From positions 1 to 33,157 of the forward strand of contig ONGB01000007.1 of the NCBI GenBank assembly GCA_900317295.1: a stretch of 33,157 bases of DNA, given 5' to 3'. Below the pieces are notes generated by a model. The model was not told the DNA's origin and did not search any database. It saw nothing but the letters and a program-made list of their open reading frames with translations. Both the position numbers and the translations under genes were made by a program. This DNA comes from an uncultured Erysipelotrichaceae bacterium. GTDB taxonomy: Bacteria > Bacillota_I > Bacilli_A > RFN20 > CAG-826. This document shows, piece after piece, positions 1 through 31,384 of this stretch (within the stretch, counting starts at the first letter, position 1; each line of letters opens with the position of its first letter).

Positions 1-3000
1 ACTTCCTCTTCGCACCATCGACGGCGAAGTGGGTGTCCGCCAAAGGCAGCCCGGTCGCGGTCCGATTCTCACGGCGGTTGATCTCGACGCTGCCTTCATG
101 CCTCTTTTCGAGGTAAGAGGCGCAGAATTCCTTGCCCAGGGCCGATCCTTGCCCTTTGTTCTCGCGGGCGAGGGCCATAGCCTCCTGGAGGCTGAGGCGT
201 TTTTGCTCTTCGGCGGCTTTGCGTTCCTCCTCGGCCTTCCTTGCTTCTTCCGCGGCTTTCTTGGCTTCCGCCTCTTGGCGCGCCTTCTCCTCCGCTGCTT
301 TGCGGGCCTCCTCGGCCTCCGTCTCCTGCCCGGCCTTCTCTACGCAAGCGGGCTTCTCGGCGGACTCGACCGCCTTCCTGCGCTTCCTGATTTTCAGGAA
401 GATGAAGACGTCGGCGGCCACAATAAGCGCCAAGACGACGCCTAAGGCGATCATCGCGGCGATCGCGCCGTTCGAGGCGGCGGACAATACCGCGAGGAAG
501 GGGACGAACAGGGCGGAGCACTTGGCCGCGGCCTGCCCGCGGTTTCCTTTTCCGCCTTCGCGCAGCTTCAGGATCAGATAGACGAGGAATCCAAGGGCCC
601 CGAGGGTCAGCACGGAGAGGATGACGATCCCCGCGACCATGCCGCCGGGGACGCCGCTGATGGCTTCCTGATAGGCGGCTTCGGCGGAGGTGAGTTTATT
701 AAGCATATCCTCGCCGAGGAGGGCCTTTTGTTCCTCGGTGAGAGCATCGTAAGCGGCCCTTGCGGCCTCGATCTTGGTCTTGCTTTGATTGTCTCCTTTG
801 ACTTTGCCGATCGAATCGATCAGGTCTCTCACTTCCGCGGCGGCGAGGTAATTCTCGGCGGCGACGAGCTTTTGATAGGTCTCAGACGAGATGCTCTTTT
901 TTTGCGCTTCGCTTAAAGCGTCATAGGCTTCGCGAGCCGCTTCGATGGCTTGACGGTCGGAGGAAGTGACTTCGTTCCCTTCCGGAAGGGCATTGATGGC
1001 TTCGTTGACTTCGAGGACCGCGATGGCATTGACCGCATCGTCGAGCTTGGTTTTTTGCGAGGCATCGATTTGGCTCTTCTCTTGTTCGCTTAAGGCTTCG
1101 AACGCCTCTTTGGCCGCCAAGACCGCTTCTTTATCCTCTAAGGAGAGATCGTCGAGGGAAGGAAGCGCGTCGATCAAGGCATTGGCCGAAGCGACCGACA
1201 AAGCGGATTCGACGGCTTTGAGTTTGGCGACGAGGTCGGGGTCGACGTTGGCCTTCTCTTCGTTAGAGAGGGCATCATAAGCTTCCCTGGCCGCCTCGAT
1301 GGCTTCGCGGTCGGATGTGGTGATTTCGCCTGAGGAAGGAAGCGCGGCGATGGCTTCGTCGACTTTGAGGACCGCGATGGCGCTGAGCGCTTCGTCGAGC
1401 TTGGCTTTCTGCTCTTGGCTGATTTGGGCCTTTTCTTGCGCGGTCAAAGCCTCATAAGCCGCTTGGGCCGCTTCGACGGCTGCTTTGTCGGCGAGGGTCA
1501 GGGCATCGCCGGCGGGGAGTTTGTCGATCTTATCGGAGCAATCGAGGACGCGGATGACGGATTCGACGGCATTGAGCTTGATGACGAGGTCGGGGTCGAC
1601 GTTGGCCTTCTCGTCGTCGGAGAGGGCGTCGTAGGATGCTCTGGCCGCTTCGACGGCCGCTTTGTCTTCGAGTTTTGCATCCTCGGCGGAAGGAAGGTTG
1701 TTCAATTTCGTGACGGCTTCCCCGACTATGAGGACGGAGAGGGCGTTTTCGGCATCGCGGAGTTTGCCGACGAGGCTGGGGTCGACTTGGGCTTTCTCGT
1801 CGTCGGAGAGGGCGTCGTAGGATGCTCTGGCCGCCTCGATGGCCCCTTTATGCGAAAGGGTGATTTCTTCTGCGTTGGGGAGGCTTTCGATCTTATCGGA
1901 GCAATCGAGGACCCGTATCTTGGATTCGATGGCATTGAGCTTGGAGACGAGGTCGGATTCAACCTTCGCTTTCTCCGCGTCGGTGAGGCCGTCATAGGCG
2001 GTTCTGGCCGCTTCGACGGCGCCTTTATCGCCAAGCGTCAAGGATTCTAGTTCGGGGAGATTGGTGATTTTTTCCACCGCGTCCGCGACCTTAAGCTCGG
2101 AAAGCCTGGCTTCCACCGCTTCGAGCTTGTCGAAGAGCTCGGAGCCTACCTCGCCCTTCTCCTCATCGGAGAGGGCATCGTAGGATGCTCTGGCCGCTTC
2201 GATGGCCCCTTTATTCGAAAGGGCGACGTTTTCCTCGGTGGGAAGCTTGCTGATCCTATCGGTGCAAACCAGGACCCGCATCTTGGATTCGACGGCATTG
2301 AGCTTGGTGACGAGGTCGGGGTCGATCTTGCTCTTTTGGTAATCGGTCAAGGCATCATAGGCCGCCCTGGCCTTCTCGACGGCGCTTTTATTGCTTAATT
2401 TGATCGCCTCCGGCGCAGGGAGCGCCTTCATCATATTGGCGACGGCGGCCGCCTTCTGGAGGTCGTTGATTTCGGCTTCCGCCCGAGTCAGCTTGGAAAG
2501 GACGTCGGCAGTGACTTTGGACTTCTGATAATCGGTCAAGGCGTTATAGGCAGCGCGGGCCGAAGTCACGCTTGCCTTGTCGCTGAGGGTGAGATCGCCG
2601 ACGGCGGGCAGATTATTGATGGCGTCGATGACGGCATTGGCTTTGGCGGTGTCGCCCAATTCCACATAAGTCGCTTCGGCATCGACGAGGATCTGCACGG
2701 TGGCAGCATCGATTTTTTTCTTTTCGCTGGCGCGAAGCTTATCGTAATTCTCGCGTGCGCTTTTGATGGCTTTGTCGCATTCATCGGTATAGGTCACCTC
2801 CCCGATCCCGTTGATGAGGGCGAGGACCTGCTCGGCGGTGACGTCATAGATGTCGTAGCGTTTTGCGGCGATGGGGCCCGTGACTTCGCCGCCGTCGATG
2901 GAAACGGTGCCGCAGCTTGCTCCGTTGCCAGGGCCGATGCAATAGTTCGTTTGTTCCCCCCTGGTCGCGGTAAGCGAACCGACGGTGCTTGCGATGGTGA

Positions 3001-4711
3001 TGTTGCCGCAGTTGCCGCTTTGGCCGCCCCCGATGCCGGCGGCGGCACGGCCGCCGGTGGCGATGATGTTGCCATGGTTGATGACGATGTTTCCGCAAGC
3101 GACGGTCCATCCGCCGCCGATGCCGGCGCCGGTGTTGTGGCCTTGGGCCTCGAGGGAACCATCGCCTTCGATGGTGAGGGTCTTATTCTGGGGAACGAAA
3201 ACGCCGGGGTAATGCGACGAGAATCCCTTGGCGAAGTTCTTGCCTTCGAGCGTGAGGGTGCCATCGCCCTCTAAGGAAATGCCGGCCCAATTGTAGCTCC
3301 CGTCGGCGACGCTTTTGATGGTGACGTCTTTCAGCGTGACGTTGGCGCCGGCGGCAACGGTGATCTTGTAGTTCCCGCTGAGGGTGCCCGTGAGCGTTTG
3401 CCCATCGAGCGCCTTGTAATTGCCTTTAAGGGTGGAGAGGTCGATGATGGGATTGAGTTCCCACTTCGCCCAGAACACCATATCCTCTTTGGCATCGGCG
3501 CCGATCTCCGTTATGGGTTCACCCACGAAGTTTTCGTTATCGTACCAACCCTTAAAAGTATAGAAATCTTTGGTGACGTTCGTGGGAAGGGTCGTGACTT
3601 CGCCCTCTTTATAGCGGGTGATATCGCCTTCTTGGATGGTTCCGCCGTTGGTATTGAGGGTAACCGAATGAAAAGTCGGATAGGCGAACGTGTCGTCCTT
3701 GACGCCGTTAGGATAGACTTCGCCGAGGACGGTAACCGTGCCGAATCTGGCATTAGGGTCGTTGGATTGGCTGGTATAGCCGGCGCCGATGGAGCAAACC
3801 GCTTTGTTCCCCCAGTTATCCTTTCCGCCTTTCTTCGCCACCACCTCTTCGACCGTGTCGGTGATGGTGATGTCTCCGACTTTGGAGGTACCGTCTCCGC
3901 CGGTGCCGATGCCGGCGCCCGTCCTTCCGCCCTGGGCGATTACGGTCCCGCCGGTGATGAGGATGTCTCCGCAGACTTCGTAACGGTCTTTTCCGGCGCC
4001 GATGCCCGCGGCTTTATCCCCGCCGGTTGCCCTTACGGTGCCTTCGGTGATCGTGATGTTTCCGCAAGAATTGAATTCCCCGCAGCCGATGGCCGCGGCG
4101 TAGCTGCCTCCGTACGCGGTGATGTCTCCGCCTTCGATGGTGATGTTGCCCACGGGAGCGTCTTGGTAGCCGGCGCCAATTGCGGCGTGGCTTTGGCCTG
4201 CCCGAGCGACGATCGTGCCTCCTTTGATGGTCACGTTACCGCCGGCCTTCTTGTTGCTGGCGCCAATGGCGCTGCCGTTGCCGGTTACGTTAAGCGAACC
4301 ATCGCCATCGATCGTAACCGTCTTGTTTTCGGGGACGAAAATGCCCGACCGTCGAGAACGATTGCTCGCAATGGTGTTCGCGCCTTTCAAAATGATGTTG
4401 GCATCGCCCTGCAAAGTGATGCCATCCCAGTCATAACTAGAATCATCGACCGTGGTGATCGATGCGTCTTGCAAGGTGACGGTCGCTCCGTCGGCGACGG
4501 AAATCTTATAATGCTTGGTCGAGGGGAGCGTGCCCGTCAAAACGTCGCCATCCTGCGCCACGTAATGGGCGGTGATGGCGGAGAGGTCTACCGTTGCAGG
4601 CCCATCTTCGGCGTAAACGGCCACCGCTTTTGGCGATAGCCCGATCAACGCTGATAGCGATAGCGCGCCGAAGAAAAGCGCCTTCAACATGAATCTTTGT
4701 TTCTTTTTCAT
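1..4711 (-). CDS. Large repeat-containing surface protein, C-terminus off the left edge
   Basis: An open frame of 1,570 codons runs from ATG at 4711 through the window edge without a stop, so the C-terminus is missing. AAGGAGG lies 6 bases before the start. Residues 1-34 are a signal peptide (KKKQR, then a hydrophobic core). Residues ~37-310 and ~424-610 are two Gly/Asn/Ile-rich modules with recurring GNITI/GGxI strands, as in beta-solenoids. Between them (~349-419) is an InlB B-repeat-like unit (TNGG, FKGWYDN, WAKWE). Twelve ~60-residue helical repeats follow. A membrane helix starts at ~1358, another hydrophobic stretch spans ~1398-1440, and a Lys/Glu/Ala-rich tail follows. I see no LPXTG motif, so anchoring appears to be by membrane helices. 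The likely role is adhesin or cell-surface stalk; the ligand is unknown. Long plus-strand open frames across this GC-rich gene are shadows. Confidence 0.88.
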   Translation of the reverse strand, partial: MKKKQRFMLKALFFGALSLSALIGLSPKAVAVYAEDGPATVDLSAITAHYVAQDGDVLTGTLPSTKHYKISVADGATVTLQDASITTVDDSSYDWDGITLQGDANIILKGANTIASNRSRRSGIFVPENKTVTIDGDGSLNVTGNGSAIGASNKKAGGNVTIKGGTIVARAGQSHAAIGAGYQDAPVGNITIEGGDITAYGGSYAAAIGCGEFNSCGNITITEGTVRATGGDKAAGIGAGKDRYEVCGDILITGGTVIAQGGRTGAGIGTGGDGTSKVGDITITDTVEEVVAKKGGKDNWGNKAVCSIGAGYTSQSNDPNARFGTVTVLGEVYPNGVKDDTFAYPTFHSVTLNTNGGTIQEGDITRYKEGEVTTLPTNVTKDFYTFKGWYDNENFVGEPITEIGADAKEDMVFWAKWELNPIIDLSTLKGNYKALDGQTLTGTLSGNYKITVAAGANVTLKDVTIKSVADGSYNWAGISLEGDGTLTLEGKNFAKGFSSHYPGVFVPQNKTLTIEGDGSLEAQGHNTGAGIGGGWTVACGNIVINHGNIIATGGRAAAGIGGGQSGNCGNITIASTVGSLTATRGEQTNYCIGPGNGASCGTVSIDGGEVTGPIAAKRYDIYDVTAEQVLALINGIGEVTYTDECDKAIKSARENYDKLRASEKKKIDAATVQILVDAEATYVELGDTAKANAVIDAINNLPAVGDLTLSDKASVTSARAAYNALTDYQKSKVTADVLSKLTRAEAEINDLQKAAAVANMMKALPAPEAIKLSNKSAVEKARAAYDALTDYQKSKIDPDLVTKLNAVESKMRVLVCTDRISKLPTEENVALSNKGAIEAARASYDALSDEEKGEVGSELFDKLEAVEARLSELKVADAVEKITNLPELESLTLGDKGAVEAARTAYDGLTDAEKAKVESDLVSKLNAIESKIRVLDCSDKIESLPNAEEITLSHKGAIEAARASYDALSDDEKAQVDPSLVGKLRDAENALSVLIVGEAVTKLNNLPSAEDAKLEDKAAVEAARASYDALSDDEKANVDPDLVIKLNAVESVIRVLDCSDKIDKLPAGDALTLADKAAVEAAQAAYEALTAQEKAQISQEQKAKLDEALSAIAVLKVDEAIAALPSSGEITTSDREAIEAAREAYDALSNEEKANVDPDLVAKLKAVESALSVASANALIDALPSLDDLSLEDKEAVLAAKEAFEALSEQEKSQIDASQKTKLDDAVNAIAVLEVNEAINALPEGNEVTSSDRQAIEAAREAYDALSEAQKKSISSETYQKLVAAENYLAAAEVRDLIDSIGKVKGDNQSKTKIEAARAAYDALTEEQKALLGEDMLNKLTSAEAAYQEAISGVPGGMVAGIVILSVLTLGALGFLVYLILKLREGGKGNRGQAAAKCSALFVPFLAVLSAASNGAIAAMIALGVVLALIVAADVFIFLKIRKRRKAVESAEKPACVEKAGQETEAEEARKAAEEKARQEAEAKKAAEEARKAEEERKAAEEQKRLSLQEAMALARENKGQGSALGKEFCASYLEKRHEGSVEINRRENRTATGLPLADTHFAVDGAKRK
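690..2800 (-). repeat. Twelve tandem ~180-bp repeats encoding helical modules
   Basis: Within the surface gene a unit recurs near 748, 923, 1090, 1270, 1450, 1630, 1812, 1993, 2175, 2350, 2540 and 2740, spaced about 170-200 bases. Each encodes about 60 residues with the pattern AA..AYDALSDDEKA.V followed by L..L..AE. Units near 1630, 1812 and 2175 are nearly identical in DNA over about 30 bases, which suggests recent duplication or gene conversion. Outer units are more diverged. Such arrays usually form rigid stalks, and copy number can change by recombination. Confidence 0.85.
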
Positions 4712-4737
4712 AGTATTCCTCCTTATTAGCCTTTAAT

Positions 4738-4765
4738 GAGAAATATTTTCAAAAAAATATTCCTC
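4738..4765. promoter_or_regulatory. Inverted repeat upstream of the surface protein gene
   Basis: A 12-base arm (GAGAAATATTTT) is mirrored by AAAATATTCCTC with one mismatch, around a very short centre. It lies 27 bases upstream of the start codon at 4711, in the leader or promoter. It could be an operator or an RNA hairpin. There is no direct evidence for a regulator. Confidence 0.4.
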
Positions 4766-5017
4766 TATCGATCGGCAACGTTCAAGAAAAAACAGCCCAA
4801 ACTATACTTTTGCGCATTCAAAGTAAAGTTCTTTGGCGGATACGGCGAGATTCCGCGCGCGGATGCGAACTATATGCTTGGGGTTCCAAGGGGGCGAGGC
4901 TCTGCGGCATCGTTGGAATTGGAATGAATGGAGTAGAAACAAATTACTGGATAATGACAACGGTGCCAATGAAAACGCAAGCACCCTCCTCCTTCCTCCC
5001 GCCTCAAAAGAAAAACA

Positions 5018-5804: not shown

Positions 5805-7109
5805 TCATAACCCCAGAAGGAAATCCGCAATGCCCACCACATAGGTTCCGTCTTGATTCCGGGTTTCGGGAATCGGGTCGCCAATCACAAGGACGTTTTT
5901 CGCTTCTCCGCGCACAAAATCAAATGGCCTGAGTTCTTTCTTCAGCACATTCGGGTCGGTGACGCTTTGACAAATTTGAACGTAAAGAACTTCGTACCCT
6001 TTCCTTGCCACGAAATCGATTTCGTAATCCTTGCGCACACTTTTCCCGTCTTTATCCTTCCCAACCGTTGGAACCATGCCAACATTTACCTGGTACCCAT
6101 TGTATAGAAGCTCGTTATAGACGGCGTTTTCCATCAGCTGTCCAATGTCGGGGAATCCGAAGTTCAGCCTTGCGTTTCTTAGCCCAGTATCGGTGAAATA
6201 GTACTTTCGCCCCGCCCCAATCAAAGATCTGCCTTTCACGTCATAGCGGGAGGCTTCCGAAAGGAGGAAAGCATCGACGAAGGAATCGATGTAACTCTCC
6301 ACCGTCTTCGGATCCAGCGATGTTTTGCCTGCGCTGCGGAGAGTATTTGCGATTTTCTCAGCGGTGATGATTTTCCCGACCAAAGAGGACAAGGCGTCGG
6401 CCAATTCGTCCAGCGCCCAATCCTTTTGGAACCCATGATGCTCCAAGATGTCTTTGAAATAAGTCGTTTGATAGAGCCCTTTTAGATACTCCTCTTTTTC
6501 ACTCCGTTGTTTTAGGACCGCTAAAGGCATCCCTCCGTGGAGGAGATATTCGTAAAGAGCCTCCGACTTGGCCCCACCAACATGGGCGTAGTACTCGGAA
6601 AATGAAAGTGGCGCCACGTGGATCTGGGTTGCCTTGTCGCGAAACTGGGTGACGATGTCGCTGGAGAGCATGCGGGAATTGCTTCCAGTCACGTAAAGAT
6701 CGATGTTTGCGACCGAGGCAAGTCCCATGACCACGTCGACGAAGGAAATCGTCTGGGCGTCCCCCTTCTTGGCTAGGACGATCTGCCCACCGGTCAGTTC
6801 GGGGTTGACGATTTCAAAGACTCGCTGGATCTCATCGAGGACAACATAAAGAGTGTCTTGCGTCCCTTTTGCCTTTTCTCTGACAAAGGCGCTGAGGGTT
6901 AATGGGTTGCGCAGATTCGCGTTGGCGTCGTCGTCTAGTTCGACAAGAAGGAATTGTTCTTCTTTCACGCCCAAAGAGATTAAATGGCTTTTAAAGATCT
7001 CCTTAAGCAAATAGGATTTGCCGCAGCGACGAATGCCAGTAACGATCTTCGGGAATCCATTTCCCATGCCCATTATTAATTGATCTAAATACTTATCGCG
7101 GGGAATCAT
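5805..7109 (-). CDS. AAA-family ATPase with DUF4143 C-terminal domain
   Basis: The 434-residue protein has the two-part structure of the common AAA_14/DUF4143 family. A Walker A motif (GIRRCGKS, residues 25-32) is followed by a Walker B-like VVLDEIQ near residue 90 and a sensor-like TGSNSRML. The C-terminal part contains ENAVYNELL and then DYEIDFVA..YEVLYVQICQS, the pattern of a PD-(D/E)xK-like fold. AAAGGAG precedes the ATG. Members are abundant and mobile in gut bacteria, and their physiological role is unsettled (DNA-associated or toxin-like functions have been suggested). It is a single-gene unit, with a 14-base palindrome just upstream. Length is normal for the family. Confidence 0.9.
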   Translation of the reverse strand: MIPRDKYLDQLIMGMGNGFPKIVTGIRRCGKSYLLKEIFKSHLISLGVKEEQFLLVELDDDANANLRNPLTLSAFVREKAKGTQDTLYVVLDEIQRVFEIVNPELTGGQIVLAKKGDAQTISFVDVVMGLASVANIDLYVTGSNSRMLSSDIVTQFRDKATQIHVAPLSFSEYYAHVGGAKSEALYEYLLHGGMPLAVLKQRSEKEEYLKGLYQTTYFKDILEHHGFQKDWALDELADALSSLVGKIITAEKIANTLRSAGKTSLDPKTVESYIDSFVDAFLLSEASRYDVKGRSLIGAGRKYYFTDTGLRNARLNFGFPDIGQLMENAVYNELLYNGYQVNVGMVPTVGKDKDGKSVRKDYEIDFVARKGYEVLYVQICQSVTDPNVLKKELRPFDFVRGEAKNVLVIGDPIPETRNQDGTYVVGIADFLLGL

Positions 7110-8825: not shown

Positions 8826-10958
8826 TTATGCGGCGGATAGGGTTTGCAGCTTCGCGTCGAGCTTCTCTAGGTCGTAGGCATCGGTGAGGGGCATGGCGAT
8901 GTTCGGCTCCACGCCGCATTCGGAATTGACGAAGGAGCCATCGCTCTTCTTCTCGGGGAAGCCGATGTTCCCGTTATATTGGTAATGGTATCCCGATAGA
9001 TCCGCCCTTCTGGCCACGCCGCAGCCGCCGCCGAGGGTCTTTTCGCCGATCGTCTTGGCGTAGCCGCCGTTCTTCGCCGCGCAGGGGAAGATATTCCCCG
9101 CGGAGAAGGAGCCGCTGCCCTGGAGGACGTAATAATGGTATTGGCCCTTCCAGGTATCCTCGGGCTCGCCATATTTGCCGTTGCCGTTAAGATCGACCTT
9201 GTAATGGGCGTCGATCACCGAGCCGGAGACCGAATGCTGATAGATCATGGAGGGGTCATCGGTCATGAAGGCGGACAAGAAGGGAATCAGCATCGCGTAG
9301 CCCCCGCGGTTCAATCCGACGTCAAAGACGACGTTTTCGATATTGGCGTTCTTCTTGACTTGGTTCATCGCGTAGCAGACGCCTTTGACGACGTCTTTAT
9401 TCATCTCGGCGTTGATGAATTTGTCGATGTCCTCGGTGCCCTCGGGGACGACGTAACTCTGAACGCCTAAGAATTTGGCTTTGTAGTCCGCGGTGAAATG
9501 CGGGAGGGAGATCACCGCGGTCTTGCCCTGCTCGTTATAGGCGAAATGGGGCAATTTGGCTTTGGCTTCCCCGGCGGCGGCCATCCCGGTGGCGAAGGCG
9601 TTGACGCGCTCCCCGGCGATATCGCCATAAGCCGCGCCTAAGGAACGGGAGAGGTTATGGGAGGCCACCCCTTCGTGGAGGAGGGTGGTATGGCCATCGC
9701 CCATCTTCCCGCCGTAGACGAAGCGGGTAAGGGCGTCATAATAAGTCGCGTAGCTAGGATCCAATAAGGCGGATTTGAGGTTGAGCCTCGTGAGTTCTGC
9801 ATCAAACGAGGCAATGCCCAAAAGCTCTTTGACCCCGTATTGGTAATCAAAGTCCATGCATAGCTGGTTATACATATAGTTGATCATCGAGGAGGAACGG
9901 GTTTCTTTCCGATAACTGCTCCCTTCGCGTAAATCGATATATTGGGTCTGCTCGCTCCCGGATAACCCCTCGGGGAGAAGATGGGCCTCGATGACGTGAT
10001 TCGCCTCTTTCCAGGTGCCGGAGAAATCGACGGTGCCCATCAAATCCTCGCTTTTGAAGGTGAGGGTGCCGTCAATCTTGAAGATCGCGGAGGCGGGGAC
10101 GTTATCGCCCTTGAAGCCGATGATATTGCCCTCGAAGCGGTAAGATTCCCCGTCTTTGGGGGTTTTCTTTTCGAAATGGGCGCGGTTTTTGGTGTCGCTC
10201 GCGTAGCTCCAGCAGAACCCGGTTTCATTGGAGAATGGGCGGATGCGGTTAGTTTCCGCCATCAAGAGCGTGGAGTTATAGAAATCCCTGCCGTTATAGG
10301 CCAGCGCGTAGCCCATGGGGTTCACTAAGAGGTGGCTAGCTAAGCCAAAGGGCAGATAGATATGGCCATCTTGCTCCACGAGGGACATCTCGTATTTGGC
10401 TAGGTCATAGGTGACGTCGCCGTTCTTGACGAGGTATTTGGTTTTGGGGGAGCCCTGGTTACCGGGGTATTGCATCCCGGGGTCTAGATAGATCCCGTTA
10501 TTGGTCGGGGTGAATTCCCCATAGAAGGCTTCGGTCTCATGCAGGACGATCTTCTGTTCCGTGGGGAATAGGTAGCAATGGCCCCCAAAGGGGGAATATA
10601 GGTCATAGGCCCCGTCATCTAGTTTTACTAGGTTATGGGGCTTCAAGTCGGGGTCGATGCATCTCCGGGCGTGCTGGAATTCGTCTAGTTCGACATAGGG
10701 GACGTCTTCTTTGTCCTTATGGCGGTAGGTCTTTAGATAGGGGGCGTCCCTCTCAATATCATTCACCGCGTAAAGCCTGGATTCTTTGTCATATAGATAG
10801 ATCTTATCCTCGGGCTTGGGCTCGATGGATTCTTCTAAGGATGCCTCGGATTCCTTGGAGGTGTCCGATGTGGCTTCGGGGGTGCTGGAGGGGACCAAAG
10901 GGGTTCCGGCGCACGAGGAAACCGCGAATAGGCTTAATAAGAGGATCGCTTTCTTCAT
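8826..10958 (-). CDS. S41-family peptidase lipoprotein
   Basis: From ATG at 10958 the protein has 710 residues. An earlier ATG at 10973 overlaps the GGAGG that serves the internal start, so I prefer 10958. The signal peptide ends in a lipobox VSSC (Cys16), followed by a Ser/Thr/Glu-rich linker. A middle section (YLVKNGDVTYDL... IYLPFGLASHLL) resembles the stalk domain often called copper-amine-oxidase N-terminal-like. The C-terminal half fits an S41 (tail-specific/C-terminal processing-like) peptidase: GDGHTTLLHEG, KTAVISLPHF, NVVFDVGLNRGG, then a catalytic-serine region QGSGSFSAGN near residue 619. It probably cleaves peptides or proteins outside the membrane. No PDZ domain is evident, as in some tricorn/IRBP-like members. 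Confidence 0.82.
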   Translation of the reverse strand: MKKAILLLSLFAVSSCAGTPLVPSSTPEATSDTSKESEASLEESIEPKPEDKIYLYDKESRLYAVNDIERDAPYLKTYRHKDKEDVPYVELDEFQHARRCIDPDLKPHNLVKLDDGAYDLYSPFGGHCYLFPTEQKIVLHETEAFYGEFTPTNNGIYLDPGMQYPGNQGSPKTKYLVKNGDVTYDLAKYEMSLVEQDGHIYLPFGLASHLLVNPMGYALAYNGRDFYNSTLLMAETNRIRPFSNETGFCWSYASDTKNRAHFEKKTPKDGESYRFEGNIIGFKGDNVPASAIFKIDGTLTFKSEDLMGTVDFSGTWKEANHVIEAHLLPEGLSGSEQTQYIDLREGSSYRKETRSSSMINYMYNQLCMDFDYQYGVKELLGIASFDAELTRLNLKSALLDPSYATYYDALTRFVYGGKMGDGHTTLLHEGVASHNLSRSLGAAYGDIAGERVNAFATGMAAAGEAKAKLPHFAYNEQGKTAVISLPHFTADYKAKFLGVQSYVVPEGTEDIDKFINAEMNKDVVKGVCYAMNQVKKNANIENVVFDVGLNRGGYAMLIPFLSAFMTDDPSMIYQHSVSGSVIDAHYKVDLNGNGKYGEPEDTWKGQYHYYVLQGSGSFSAGNIFPCAAKNGGYAKTIGEKTLGGGCGVARRADLSGYHYQYNGNIGFPEKKSDGSFVNSECGVEPNIAMPLTDAYDLEKLDAKLQTLSAA

Positions 10959-11196
10959 AAATGAAACCTCCATCGGATGGTTAGGAGAATTATGCCATAA
11001 AGATAGAAAGGTGGGGGTGGGAATGGAAAAGAGAAACGAAGGCAGATGCCCTACTGCCGCTCATGAATTGGATAACTTTTGCTCTAGAGTTTCAAGTGAT
11101 GAAACCATCGATGTTTTAGGATAAAAAACGGCAATTGTTCTTTTTTAGAAGGGCGTATCCTTAATGTGGATAGCCACATAAATTAAGGAGATTTTT
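10959..11196. other. Divergent intergenic region at the left edge of the plus-strand island
   Basis: This 238-base region separates the minus-strand lipoprotein operon from the plus-strand block. It contains GGAGG for the peptidase gene near 10966-10972 and a hairpin overlapping the ribosome-binding site of the 11197 gene. TTGTTC (11135-11140) and TATCCT (11155-11160) resemble promoter boxes but are too closely spaced to be convincing. I see no integrase, tRNA or attachment-site repeat here. Confidence 0.4.
11159..11188 (+). promoter_or_regulatory. Hairpin that covers the ribosome-binding site
   Basis: CCTTA-ATGTGG (11159-11169) pairs with CCACAT (11174-11179) and, after a bulge, TAAGG (11184-11188), around a 4-base loop. 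The right arm includes the AAGG of the AAGGAG ribosome-binding site for the ATG at 11197. If transcribed, the structure would hide that site, hinting at translational control. It could equally be a DNA operator. Confidence 0.4.
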
Positions 11197-12487: not shown

Positions 12488-13660
12488 ATGCAAAAACCAT
12501 CTACTAATAATGTTCTGGGCTCAGAGACCTTGTTTACTTCTTTGCTGATCGTTGGCCCCATTTCGCTTCTCACCGCCATACCATGCACCATCGTTTGTTG
12601 CGTTTCGCCCTCCAGCGATCCCACCACGCTTACAGCAGCCGTCTTGGGATGGTTGATTTTTTTCGCCTGTCTCATCCTTTTTATCGCAATGGTCGTCTAC
12701 GATCGGTCCCCAAAATACCCCAGAAAAAAGCAAAGTAATTCGGCCTCTTTGTGGGCCTCCCCCACTCATGACACGCTTTATCAGTATTACGTGGATTTCA
12801 AAGTGGCCGAGGCTTCTTCCTCTAGTCGGATGAAGATCACTGAATCGAAGCCCACTGAGGAATCGGTTTCAAAGCCTTTCATGTCCAAAGCCCAACCAAT
12901 ACTTGAAGACGAAAGACCAATGGACTTTTATGATGCCGGAAGAATCAGCCGATTGATGTTTGCGAAAAATGTGAGCCGCGAGCGCATCGTTGAACGAACC
13001 CAATTAGATCCGTTTAACACCCATCTACTTCGCAAAGAAGTCAATGCAATCATCGACTTTCTCGAAAAAGAACCCATTCATGACGCTTCAGCCCCCGCAA
13101 ATGAAGAAATAAGCAATCCTGAAGAGATAAGCAAGCCCATTGAAAACGAGCAGCGAACGGTTGCAAAACCGCCCGTCAAAAAAGCGAAAGCCAAACCTAG
13201 TGGGAGCCAAAACAAAAAGAAGCCTCAAAAGACTGATAACCATAGCAGTCCCAAAAAGACTGATAACCATAGTAGTCCCAAAAAGGCTAACAATCATAGC
13301 AGTCCTAAAAAGCCAGATGTTTCAACCCCGGCAACACAGGCAAGAAAGCTATTGAACGAACACCATATAAAACTCTCTGGGGTAACCTTTGAGGGAAGGC
13401 AAAACAACATCGCTGTTACGAGTGTCGGGACTCCAGTTCGCGTAGTGGCCTCGCTTAATAACCCCTACGACCCTTATGCCGTAGAGATATTTAATGACTG
13501 GAGGACCTTGGGGTTCATCCCTAAGGGTCAAAATCGCAGCATCCACGATGCGATTTTGAGGCAGAAACATGTTTTCGAAGGAAGAGTCGAGAAGATCTTA
13601 GGCGGAGGCTATTCGTATAGCTATGGCTTAATTGTCCATCTATATGAATATGATCGGTAG
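12488..13660 (+). CDS. Membrane-anchored HIRAN-domain protein
   Basis: The 390-residue protein begins with two membrane helices (~15-39 and ~47-70). A helical region follows (~145-195, DAGRISRLMFAKNVSRERIV...), then a Lys/Pro/Ser linker with three copies of a nine-residue repeat (248-274), and a C-terminal HIRAN domain (~296-388): SGVTFEGRQNN, NNPYDPYAVEI, LGFIPKG and a beta-rich end. The NPYDPxAV and LGxIP patterns are hallmarks of HIRAN. In the eukaryotic protein HLTF this domain binds DNA ends; bacterial copies often occur near helicases. Here it would be held at the inner membrane face. The next gene starts 3 bases later, and the helicase gene follows. GAGG lies about 8 bases before the start. 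The HIRAN call is fairly sure; function is inferred. Confidence 0.82.
   Translation: MQKPSTNNVLGSETLFTSLLIVGPISLLTAIPCTIVCCVSPSSDPTTLTAAVLGWLIFFACLILFIAMVVYDRSPKYPRKKQSNSASLWASPTHDTLYQYYVDFKVAEASSSSRMKITESKPTEESVSKPFMSKAQPILEDERPMDFYDAGRISRLMFAKNVSRERIVERTQLDPFNTHLLRKEVNAIIDFLEKEPIHDASAPANEEISNPEEISKPIENEQRTVAKPPVKKAKAKPSGSQNKKKPQKTDNHSSPKKTDNHSSPKKANNHSSPKKPDVSTPATQARKLLNEHHIKLSGVTFEGRQNNIAVTSVGTPVRVVASLNNPYDPYAVEIFNDWRTLGFIPKGQNRSIHDAILRQKHVFEGRVEKILGGGYSYSYGLIVHLYEYDR
13229..13309 (+). repeat. Three 27-bp tandem repeats inside the HIRAN gene
   Basis: Three head-to-tail units encode KTDNHSSPK, KTDNHSSPK and KANNHSSPK in the linker before the HIRAN domain. The DNA copies differ at a few bases. 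This is a coding minisatellite that could change linker length without shifting frame. Confidence 0.85.
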
Positions 13661-30565: not shown

Positions 30566-31384
30566 CTATTCCTTCCTGACGCTTTCAAGGGCATCTTTGA
30601 TATCCTGTGGCAAGCGCTTCTGCGCCTCTATCAGGTATTCCTCGGGGATCTCCTTGTAATAGGCCTCGGCGATCGGACAGGCGATGGCCGCGAGGGTGTC
30701 CGCGTCCCAGCGGATCGACAAACATAGCCTCAGGCAGTCGTCGAAGGAGTCGCTGTGGAGGAAGCACCAGATGGCCTGCGGGACGGTGACCTGGCAGGTC
30801 TCGTCCCCGTGGGAGAGCTCCGCCATCATGCCCTCGTAGTTAAGGTTCAGGTCATAACGCTCGGACGCGTATGCCCGGATCTCCTCCCGACTCGCTCCAT
30901 GGAGGGCCATATAAATGCAGACGGCGATCACCACCGCTCCTCTGATGCCCTCGGGATGGTTATGGGTGCATTCGGTAACCTCCTTCGCGAGCCTCTCGCA
31001 TTCCTCGAGGCTCTGGGCGTAATAGGCGACGGGGGACACCCGCATCGCCGATCCGTTGCCAAAGGAGTTATAGGGCTTGGGGTCTTCTAAGTAGATCCAG
31101 GAGTTAAAGCGCCCGCCGTAGCCGGCCTCGGAATAGGCCCTGGCCCACTTCTGGAGGTAATGAGCGACCGGCTCACCCTCTCCTTTGTGGGCGCAGTAAT
31201 CCGCGACGGCCGCGGTCAGGACGCTGTCGTCGGTGAAGGTCGATTCATCGTGAATCTGGATGTATTGCTTCGGAGTCTTAGGCCCGTGCTTGAATTCGTA
31301 GTAGGAGCCATAGATGTCCCCGATCGCGGCCCCGTAGGTGCCTTTGTAGTCCTTGATGCTGACCATGTTTTTATATTGATCCAT
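30566..31384 (-). CDS. ADP-ribosylglycohydrolase-family protein
   Basis: The 272-residue protein has AGGAGG 7 bases before the ATG. Motifs of the ARH/DraG fold are visible: GDIYGSYYE (22-30), TFTDDS (49-54; the two Asp are metal ligands), HNHPEG (141-146) and WDADT (226-230), which stands where most members have GGDxDT. The binuclear-magnesium residues are therefore kept, but the glycines before the last motif are replaced by Arg-Trp. The family removes ADP-ribose from proteins or small molecules. It precedes a small gene and a macro-domain gene on the same strand. Confidence 0.88.
   Translation of the reverse strand: MDQYKNMVSIKDYKGTYGAAIGDIYGSYYEFKHGPKTPKQYIQIHDESTFTDDSVLTAAVADYCAHKGEGEPVAHYLQKWARAYSEAGYGGRFNSWIYLEDPKPYNSFGNGSAMRVSPVAYYAQSLEECERLAKEVTECTHNHPEGIRGAVVIAVCIYMALHGASREEIRAYASERYDLNLNYEGMMAELSHGDETCQVTVPQAIWCFLHSDSFDDCLRLCLSIRWDADTLAAIACPIAEAYYKEIPEEYLIEAQKRLPQDIKDALESVRKE

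Follow-up and report, generated by a model that had tools for sequence, protein, structure and literature searches.

The question raised by this locus is how a modular surface protein is held at the cell, and what the tail at its C-terminal end does. The window, meaning the whole stretch of 33,157 nucleotides that was analyzed, is one complete contig (G000:C59) of an uncultured Erysipelotrichaceae genome (1.6 Mb, 91 contigs, 91% complete). At its left edge lies a single open frame on the minus strand (4711..2), which encodes 1,570 amino acids before it is cut by the contig end. The protein was found to consist of a signal peptide, a beta-solenoid, an InlB B-repeat, a second beta-solenoid, 12 repeats, a hydrophobic region, a linker rich in lysine, glutamate and alanine (K/E/A) and the start of a new domain, an anatomy that we regard as secure. 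The initial annotation had proposed the same modular layout (two solenoids, an InlB B-repeat, 12 units and hydrophobic segments), and the open frame, the Pfam matches (Beta_helix_3 among them, at E 1.4e-11) and the hydropathy profile agree with it. The features are as follows.

4712..4855 (-): upstream stretch in common with the orthologue L010, 89.7% DNA identity
within 4712..4855 (-): Shine-Dalgarno-like AAGGAGG before the ATG, by eye
4607..4711 (-): signal peptide, residues ~1-35, hydrophobic from residue 7, after MKKKQR
3677..4591 (-): beta-solenoid 1, residues 41-345, predicted Cthe_2159-like fold (PF18889 repeats, model, 4peu alignment)
3464..3670 (-): InlB B-repeat PF09479, residues 348-416 (E 1.1e-11, 45.1 bits, cut-off 27)
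2852..3451 (-): beta-solenoid 2, residues 421-620 (sequence and modelled strands)
659..2839 (-): stalk of 12 repeats of 58-66 aa, residues 625-1351 (unit alignment and profile), putatively helical
383..667 (-): membrane region, residues 1349-1443, hydrophobic runs of 36 and 50 residues (hydropathy), probably three helices
203..376 (-): K/E/A-rich linker of ~58 aa, residues 1446-1503 (sequence)
2..202 (-): first half of YjbR domain 1, residues 1504-1570 (identity to L003 and L004)

Elsewhere on the contig, we noted an AAA_14/DUF4143 ATPase (5808-7109), an S41-peptidase-like protein (8829-10973), an ADP-ribosylglycohydrolase (30569-31384) and a HIRAN-domain protein (12488-13657, in the ORF 12488-13660), inside whose ORF lies a 27-base tandem repeat (13227-13312; 3.2 copies, 88% matches).

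Repeat stalk and solenoid tip

The 12 repeats had initially been described as near-identical and recently expanded, and neither description held. Over the 66 pairs among the 12 units, amino acid identity averaged only 40.8% (range 25-61%). As repeats, the 12 units stand well clear of chance: a profile built from 11 of them found its own 11 sites at E 9e-22 to 5e-29, as it would by construction, and recovered the left-out first unit at E 1.7e-6. The orthologue at locus L010 (Bacilli bacterium RGIG5035, from roe deer rumen) also carries 12 units, so that the comparison of repeat number across strains suggested earlier gave 12 in both proteins. It was noted that the L010 unit in the same position was the nearest one for 12 of the 12 window units (70-88% identity), with a narrow match for unit 6 (70 vs 69). 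Because of this positional pairing, the array appears to be older than the split between the window protein and L010, which contradicts a recent expansion. A collapse of the repeats during assembly, also considered at the outset, was not indicated, given 12 distinct units here and 12 in L010, where one frameshift falls between units 7 and 8.

The repeats are probably helical, judging from their sequence. Comparison by sequence with solved structures gave no credible match (best E 0.073), and DUF3106 fell just below its Pfam cut-off (24.0 vs 24.3 bits). Two units of the same repeat were also observed in another surface protein encoded by this genome (L112:1002-3887, on G000:C66), which has a bare C-terminal transmembrane segment (TM).

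Residues 32-640 were modelled from two sequences, with a mean pLDDT of 72.7 that was better in solenoid 1 (80-96 over most of its length). The solenoid 1 model aligned with Cthe_2159 (4peu) over 211 residues at Z 22.5 and an rmsd of 2.4, and the next row stood at Z 16.0. Foldseek alone placed 4peu 31st for the solenoid model (E 2.2) and returned no match at E <=0.001. PF14262, the Cthe_2159 family, was absent from the Pfam scan of the window protein at E up to 1, and no solved relative of either solenoid was found by sequence at E 0.01. Because the PF14262 match is absent, solenoid 1 is said here to fold like Cthe_2159 and not to be one; it further differs in being part of a multi-domain membrane protein. 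Cthe_2159-type proteins bind celluloses and polygalacturonic acid, according to the available text of PMC6712302, and by analogy the solenoid tip may bind plant cell-wall polysaccharide.

Membrane anchoring and the tandem YjbR tail

The hydrophobic runs of the window protein span residues 1349-1384 (36 residues) and 1394-1443 (50 residues). With a 19-residue hydropathy window, only two segments are seen in this protein and in L009, L010, L012 and L024, as would be expected if the membrane region had two helices and the YjbR pair described below lay outside the cell. We consider that topology highly improbable: the second run, at 50 residues here and 50-71 in the relatives read as having three helices, stands against 33-35 residues for the sole run of L034, L037 and L056, where the tail follows a single TM; the tandem YjbR proteins L013-L015 have no hydrophobic segment; and a cysteine is invariant in 104 domain copies. 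The long second run is more probably a hairpin, and hydropathy thus suggests three helices with the C-terminus inside.

Membrane rather than LPXTG anchoring had been proposed at first, and our results agree with that view. In addition to the membrane region seen by hydropathy, a sortase motif was absent from the last 50 residues of all 47 YjbR ORFs of relatives with a closing stop codon (the set includes some fragments and L023_7, which ends at an in-frame stop, and excludes the cut window protein), so that the downstream motif that would have spoken for sortase did not appear in these relatives. The LPxT/S-like words were only internal ones. Similarly, a sortase gene was found in 0/23 carrier genomes, the window's own included, by a search whose control was positive in 3/14 known genomes. 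An LPXTG/sortase-anchored surface protein was rejected on these two counts. Sortase was present in 4 of the 279 genomes of the window's order, and its absence was dismissed as a special mark of tail genomes, as 275/279 order genomes also lack it. Because the absence is general in the order, it fits membrane anchoring and not specifically YjbR.

We sought the identity of the tail in its relatives. The initial annotation had described a long Lys/Glu/Ala coiled-coil tail with, possibly, a further domain beyond the window. The K/E/A stretch stood (~58 aa), but beyond it the tail is globular in the model of the relative L009, and the further domain was confirmed as tandem YjbR in close relatives, the first copy of which begins within the window. 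Relatives of the last 67 residues of the window protein were found in 4/196 genomes of the family, its own genome included. At the protein level, residues 1504-1570 are 93% identical to L003 and 66% to L004, and both of these frames continue through two domain copies of ~135 aa before a stop.

Pfam placed the L003 domain in YjbR (E 3e-14, two stretches) and listed no such match for L004 and L005. Among 14 scanned relatives, PF04237 scored above the cut-off in four (L003, L010, L019, L020), below it in two (L028, L039) and was unlisted in eight; since only 4/14 pass, the tail is read as a divergent PF04237 branch. The six domain copies of L003, L004 and L005 align with 30 invariant columns, and their profile matched E. 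coli YjbR (2fki) in the PDB at E 1.8e-5.

The window holds only half of one domain. The domain pair of L009 was modelled (AlphaFold2, 26 sequences; pLDDT 91.8, pTM 0.65). Its four top structural alignments were all to PF04237 proteins, namely 2a1v, 3h9x, 2fki and 2kfp (Z 11.0, 10.2, 8.8 and 8.0). The next rows were VP1028 (Z 6.4) and the DNA-binding domain of T4 MotA (Z 5.7); unrelated proteins appear at around Z 5, several of which match the tail as well as MotA does. Likenesses to T3S chaperones and MotA (Z 3.5-5.7) were set aside as too low to rest on. In Foldseek, 2a1v (E 1.3e-3) came ahead of 2fki (E 1.1e-2) at the top of the list, with no PDB match below E 0.001 for this model. The L009 pair is predicted to have the CyaY-like, or double-wing, fold of YjbR/MmcQ, and the YjbR fold of the close relatives' tail is shown at the level of this model.

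The likeness to the YjbR/MmcQ proteins E. coli YjbR (2fki), PSPTO_3016 (3h9x) and DR2400 (2a1v) lies in the fold, and in the sequence over the second half of the domain. Unlike these proteins, the tail copies sit in tandem at the C-terminus of a membrane surface protein and have extra N-terminal helices and a conserved TGLPLADTHY, and many members fall below the Pfam cut-off. The full tail domains are near neutral (mean net charge -1.5, pI 6.6). Invariant K, D, H, C, Y and W positions were found in the 104 full copies; some of these positions belong to the two motifs by which the loci were found.

Recurrence, exchange and constraint across loci

A two-motif scan of genome contigs, which favors domains that keep both motifs, identified 49 loci of the tail family. 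Taxa given in the locus titles are Bacilli, Bacillales, Clostridia, Clostridiales, Christensenella, Ruminococcus and Erysipelotrichaceae, with a single mention of Gammaproteobacteria (L023). Rumen or reticulum appears in 15/49 titles and RUG isolate names, which we take to denote rumen genomes, in 8 more; the closest named relatives came from goat and deer rumen. By profile, the domain was detected in 7/279 genomes of the window's order and in 28/297 of L018's Clostridia order, where weak matches may be ordinary YjbR.

The family's 50 ORFs hold between 1 and 6 copies of the domain each, which adds up to 112 copies, 104 of which are full. Six of the 34 ORFs closed at both ends combine an ectodomain, a membrane region and a C-terminal YjbR part (L018, L019, L020, L025, L028 and L034; 1,835-3,286 aa, with ectodomains of 1,270-2,785 aa), and four more fusion ORFs, open at the N-terminus, have 254-952 aa before the membrane. 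The ectodomains differ, with GLUG, MBG or InlB repeats and, by eye, solenoid-like and helical-repeat parts; the same tail is thus attached to unrelated large ectodomains. A separate TM-YjbR gene overlaps an upstream large gene by 8-77 nt, taking first-ATG starts, in seven loci (L042, L043, L045, L046, L051, L052 and L057), where the upstream protein has 1,918-2,218 aa and hydrophobic segments near its N- and C-termini. These seven are among 11 rows with an ORF of at least 700 aa upstream on the same strand; L022, L023, L026 and L055 make up the rest. Parts that are fused in some loci and encoded by overlapping genes in others usually function together. The rest of the ORFs were short YjbR membrane proteins, tandem YjbR proteins that lack hydrophobic segments (L013-L015) or cut frames. 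A single ancient tandem duplication behind all tails was only partly borne out (15/22 two-domain ORFs). The adhesin-membrane-YjbR layout recurs in many gut bacteria.

Several further features of these loci were noted. Two YjbR domains are followed in L034:1358-11215 by a ribosomal-protein-L15-like domain (PF00828, E 1.2e-9; TIGR01071 below cut-off), and by eye L016 and L017 resemble it there. L049:9533-11944 (Candidatus Fiminaster equi) carries two copies of a ~125-aa domain after its YjbR pair, with no Pfam match at E 5. L020:1888-7587 has a duplicated stretch between the membrane region and YjbR, with a sub-threshold DUF1508/YegP match (20.8 bits vs 22), and similar stretches were seen by eye in L019, L022, L037 and L039. 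A small membrane-protein gene, cohesin-like by eye, lies upstream of the large surface-protein gene in L042, L044 and L046. Single in-frame stops, which may reflect an error, a pseudogene or a switch, occur in L022 (9293, TGA), L026 (9674, TGA) and L023 (8106, TAA) and cut the gene within or past the membrane region, or within a YjbR domain.

Besides recurring in this way, the gene resembles a cassette that has been exchanged horizontally, since the identity between related copies ends near the gene borders and the surroundings barely match. The 89.7% DNA identity reaches 144 bases before the ATG (window 4855, L010 5236) with none beyond. L010 matches L009 and L011 to 42-46 bases past the stop, L009 matches L011 to ~75 bases past it, and a hairpin of -19 kcal/mol lies just 3' of the stop, where the L009/L010/L011 matches end. 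In L009 and L010 a hairpin after the stop is read as a putative terminator. The other matches of L010 (20 kb) in the window's genome were 16 patches of 37-456 bases at 66-92% on other contigs, with 40/110 candidates scored. Similarly, 12 kb of the window shared only 366 bases at 70% with G243, the 61%-complete genome of the L010 gene. The cassette picture is complicated by a 1.1-kb stretch downstream of the YjbR gene that is 89% identical between L010:11419-12502 and L012:4812-5895, two loci whose YjbR genes reach just 65-72% in their main alignments; this stretch is possibly another recent exchange, and because of it exchange does not appear to be confined to the YjbR gene. Among plasmids, phages and IMG/VR contigs, no match to the gene was found.

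We assessed selection along the gene between window and L010 (Nei-Gojobori), where whole-gene values rest on one pair of full-length copies. The dN/dS was 1.77 in solenoid 1, 0.97 in the InlB repeat, 0.81 in solenoid 2 and 0.73 in the repeats, compared to 0.25 and 0.19 in the linker and the YjbR part, respectively (constraint on linker and YjbR, p 7e-6; solenoid 1 vs linker and YjbR, p 4.5e-5). Between L009 and L010, the two YjbR domains gave 0.16 and 0.13. Positive selection on solenoid 1 was not accepted, as p 0.055 against neutrality is suggestive only. Synonymous divergence varies within the gene, from 0.07 to 0.41, and internal recombination may therefore play a part. The ectodomain looks like the fast-evolving, variable part and the tail like the constrained, constant one.

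These rates bear on whether the protein is a plain membrane anchor whose tail is an accidental or ancestral fusion without a function of its own. Such a tail would fit a gene that is single-copy in the window's genome and is interrupted by stops or frameshifts in L010, L022, L026 and L023, although each interruption is an isolated event in a metagenome assembly and could be an error. The tail dN/dS of 0.13-0.19, the invariant polar residues and the recurrence of the tail with unrelated ectodomains and in overlapping genes make this reading improbable. Furthermore, since the surface protein at L112, which also belongs to this genome, has only a bare TM and a short basic tail at its C-terminus, the YjbR tail is likely more than an anchor. 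Its use as a general anchor of the surface proteins of its own genome was rejected, with one tail only in that genome and the bare end of L112.

Candidate functions of the adhesin and its tail

With its length of at least 1,570 aa, its stalk of 12 repeats, its surface anchor in the form of a membrane region seen by hydropathy and its N-terminal solenoid, a candidate distal adhesive domain with the predicted fold of a polysaccharide binder, the window protein resembles the fibrillar adhesins of Gram-positive bacteria as set out in the available part of PMC9210967. It differs in that its anchor is a membrane region with tandem YjbR and not a known anchor domain or sortase motif, which according to that part only 846/1,666 training fibrillar adhesins possess. 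We give about even chances to the protein being a membrane-anchored fibrillar polysaccharide adhesin or receptor whose YjbR tail binds an intracellular partner, possibly nucleic acid. The solenoid tip would grip plant cell-wall polysaccharide and the repeat stalk would carry it out through the cell wall. The odd number of membrane helices, probably three here and one in some relatives, would leave the C-terminus inside, where two YjbR domains would hold the partner, so that binding outside would be physically coupled to the inside.

Judged from the fold, nucleic acid would be the best candidate for the partner, with the protein acting as a nucleoid or mRNA tether or as a one-piece membrane sensor. 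Nucleic acid is favored because of the fold and of the published inference that YjbR is a likely DNA binder (PMC7641849, in the text available). The near-neutral charge of the domains counts against non-specific DNA binding by the tail. Alternatively, the partner might be a protein, with the tail serving as a scaffold or localization module that clusters or places the adhesin in the membrane. Because of the near-neutral charge and the variable copy number (1 to 6 copies per ORF, as an avidity scaffold would predict), this protein module keeps a real though minor share of the probability. The tail's structural likeness to chaperone-like alpha/beta folds would also suit it, but this is weak, at a Z of 4-5 that merely common arrangements reach, and the inference published for the family, as far as the accessible text of PMC7641849 goes, is DNA binding.

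The fusions of MmcQ/YjbR with EVE described in the available text of PMC7641849 resemble the tail described here, as YjbR is a fusion module in Firmicutes there too and lies at times near histidine kinases and response regulators. The fusions listed in that text (EVE, DUF1831, nucleases, TerB, acetyltransferases and a transposase) differ from ours, none of them having a surface ectodomain or membrane region. By eye, histidine-kinase-like and response-regulator-like genes adjoin the YjbR gene in L014, L018, L019 and L020, a weak hint of signalling. ToxR and CadC are membrane-bound one-component regulators whose DNA-binding domain is an N-terminal winged helix. Their likeness to the window protein is one of layout only, with a sensor-like part outside and a DNA-binder-like fold inside in one protein; unlike in ToxR/CadC, the inner part here is YjbR, C-terminal and tandem, and Pfam scans of the window protein and 14 relatives found no winged-helix DNA-binding domain.

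A broader proposal is that giant, swappable polysaccharide-binding ectodomains are wired through the membrane to a multivalent YjbR double-wing part that keeps nucleic acid, be it chromosome or mRNA, at the membrane. Such a one-piece transmembrane signal or tether, of a new kind, would have spread by horizontal transfer among Bacilli and Clostridia of the gut, either in cis or divided between two overlapping genes; we regard this as rather unlikely. No published account of YjbR-tailed surface proteins was found in a full-text literature search that covered titles and abstract openings, mostly outside subscription journals. The layout amounts to a recurrent anchoring arrangement in bacteria without sortase. 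Because the inner domain is conserved, adhesins of this kind may, besides holding on, pass information to the inside of the cell or be tethered there, and the YjbR family, whose functions are only predicted in the available text of PMC7641849, gains a setting where function can be tested.
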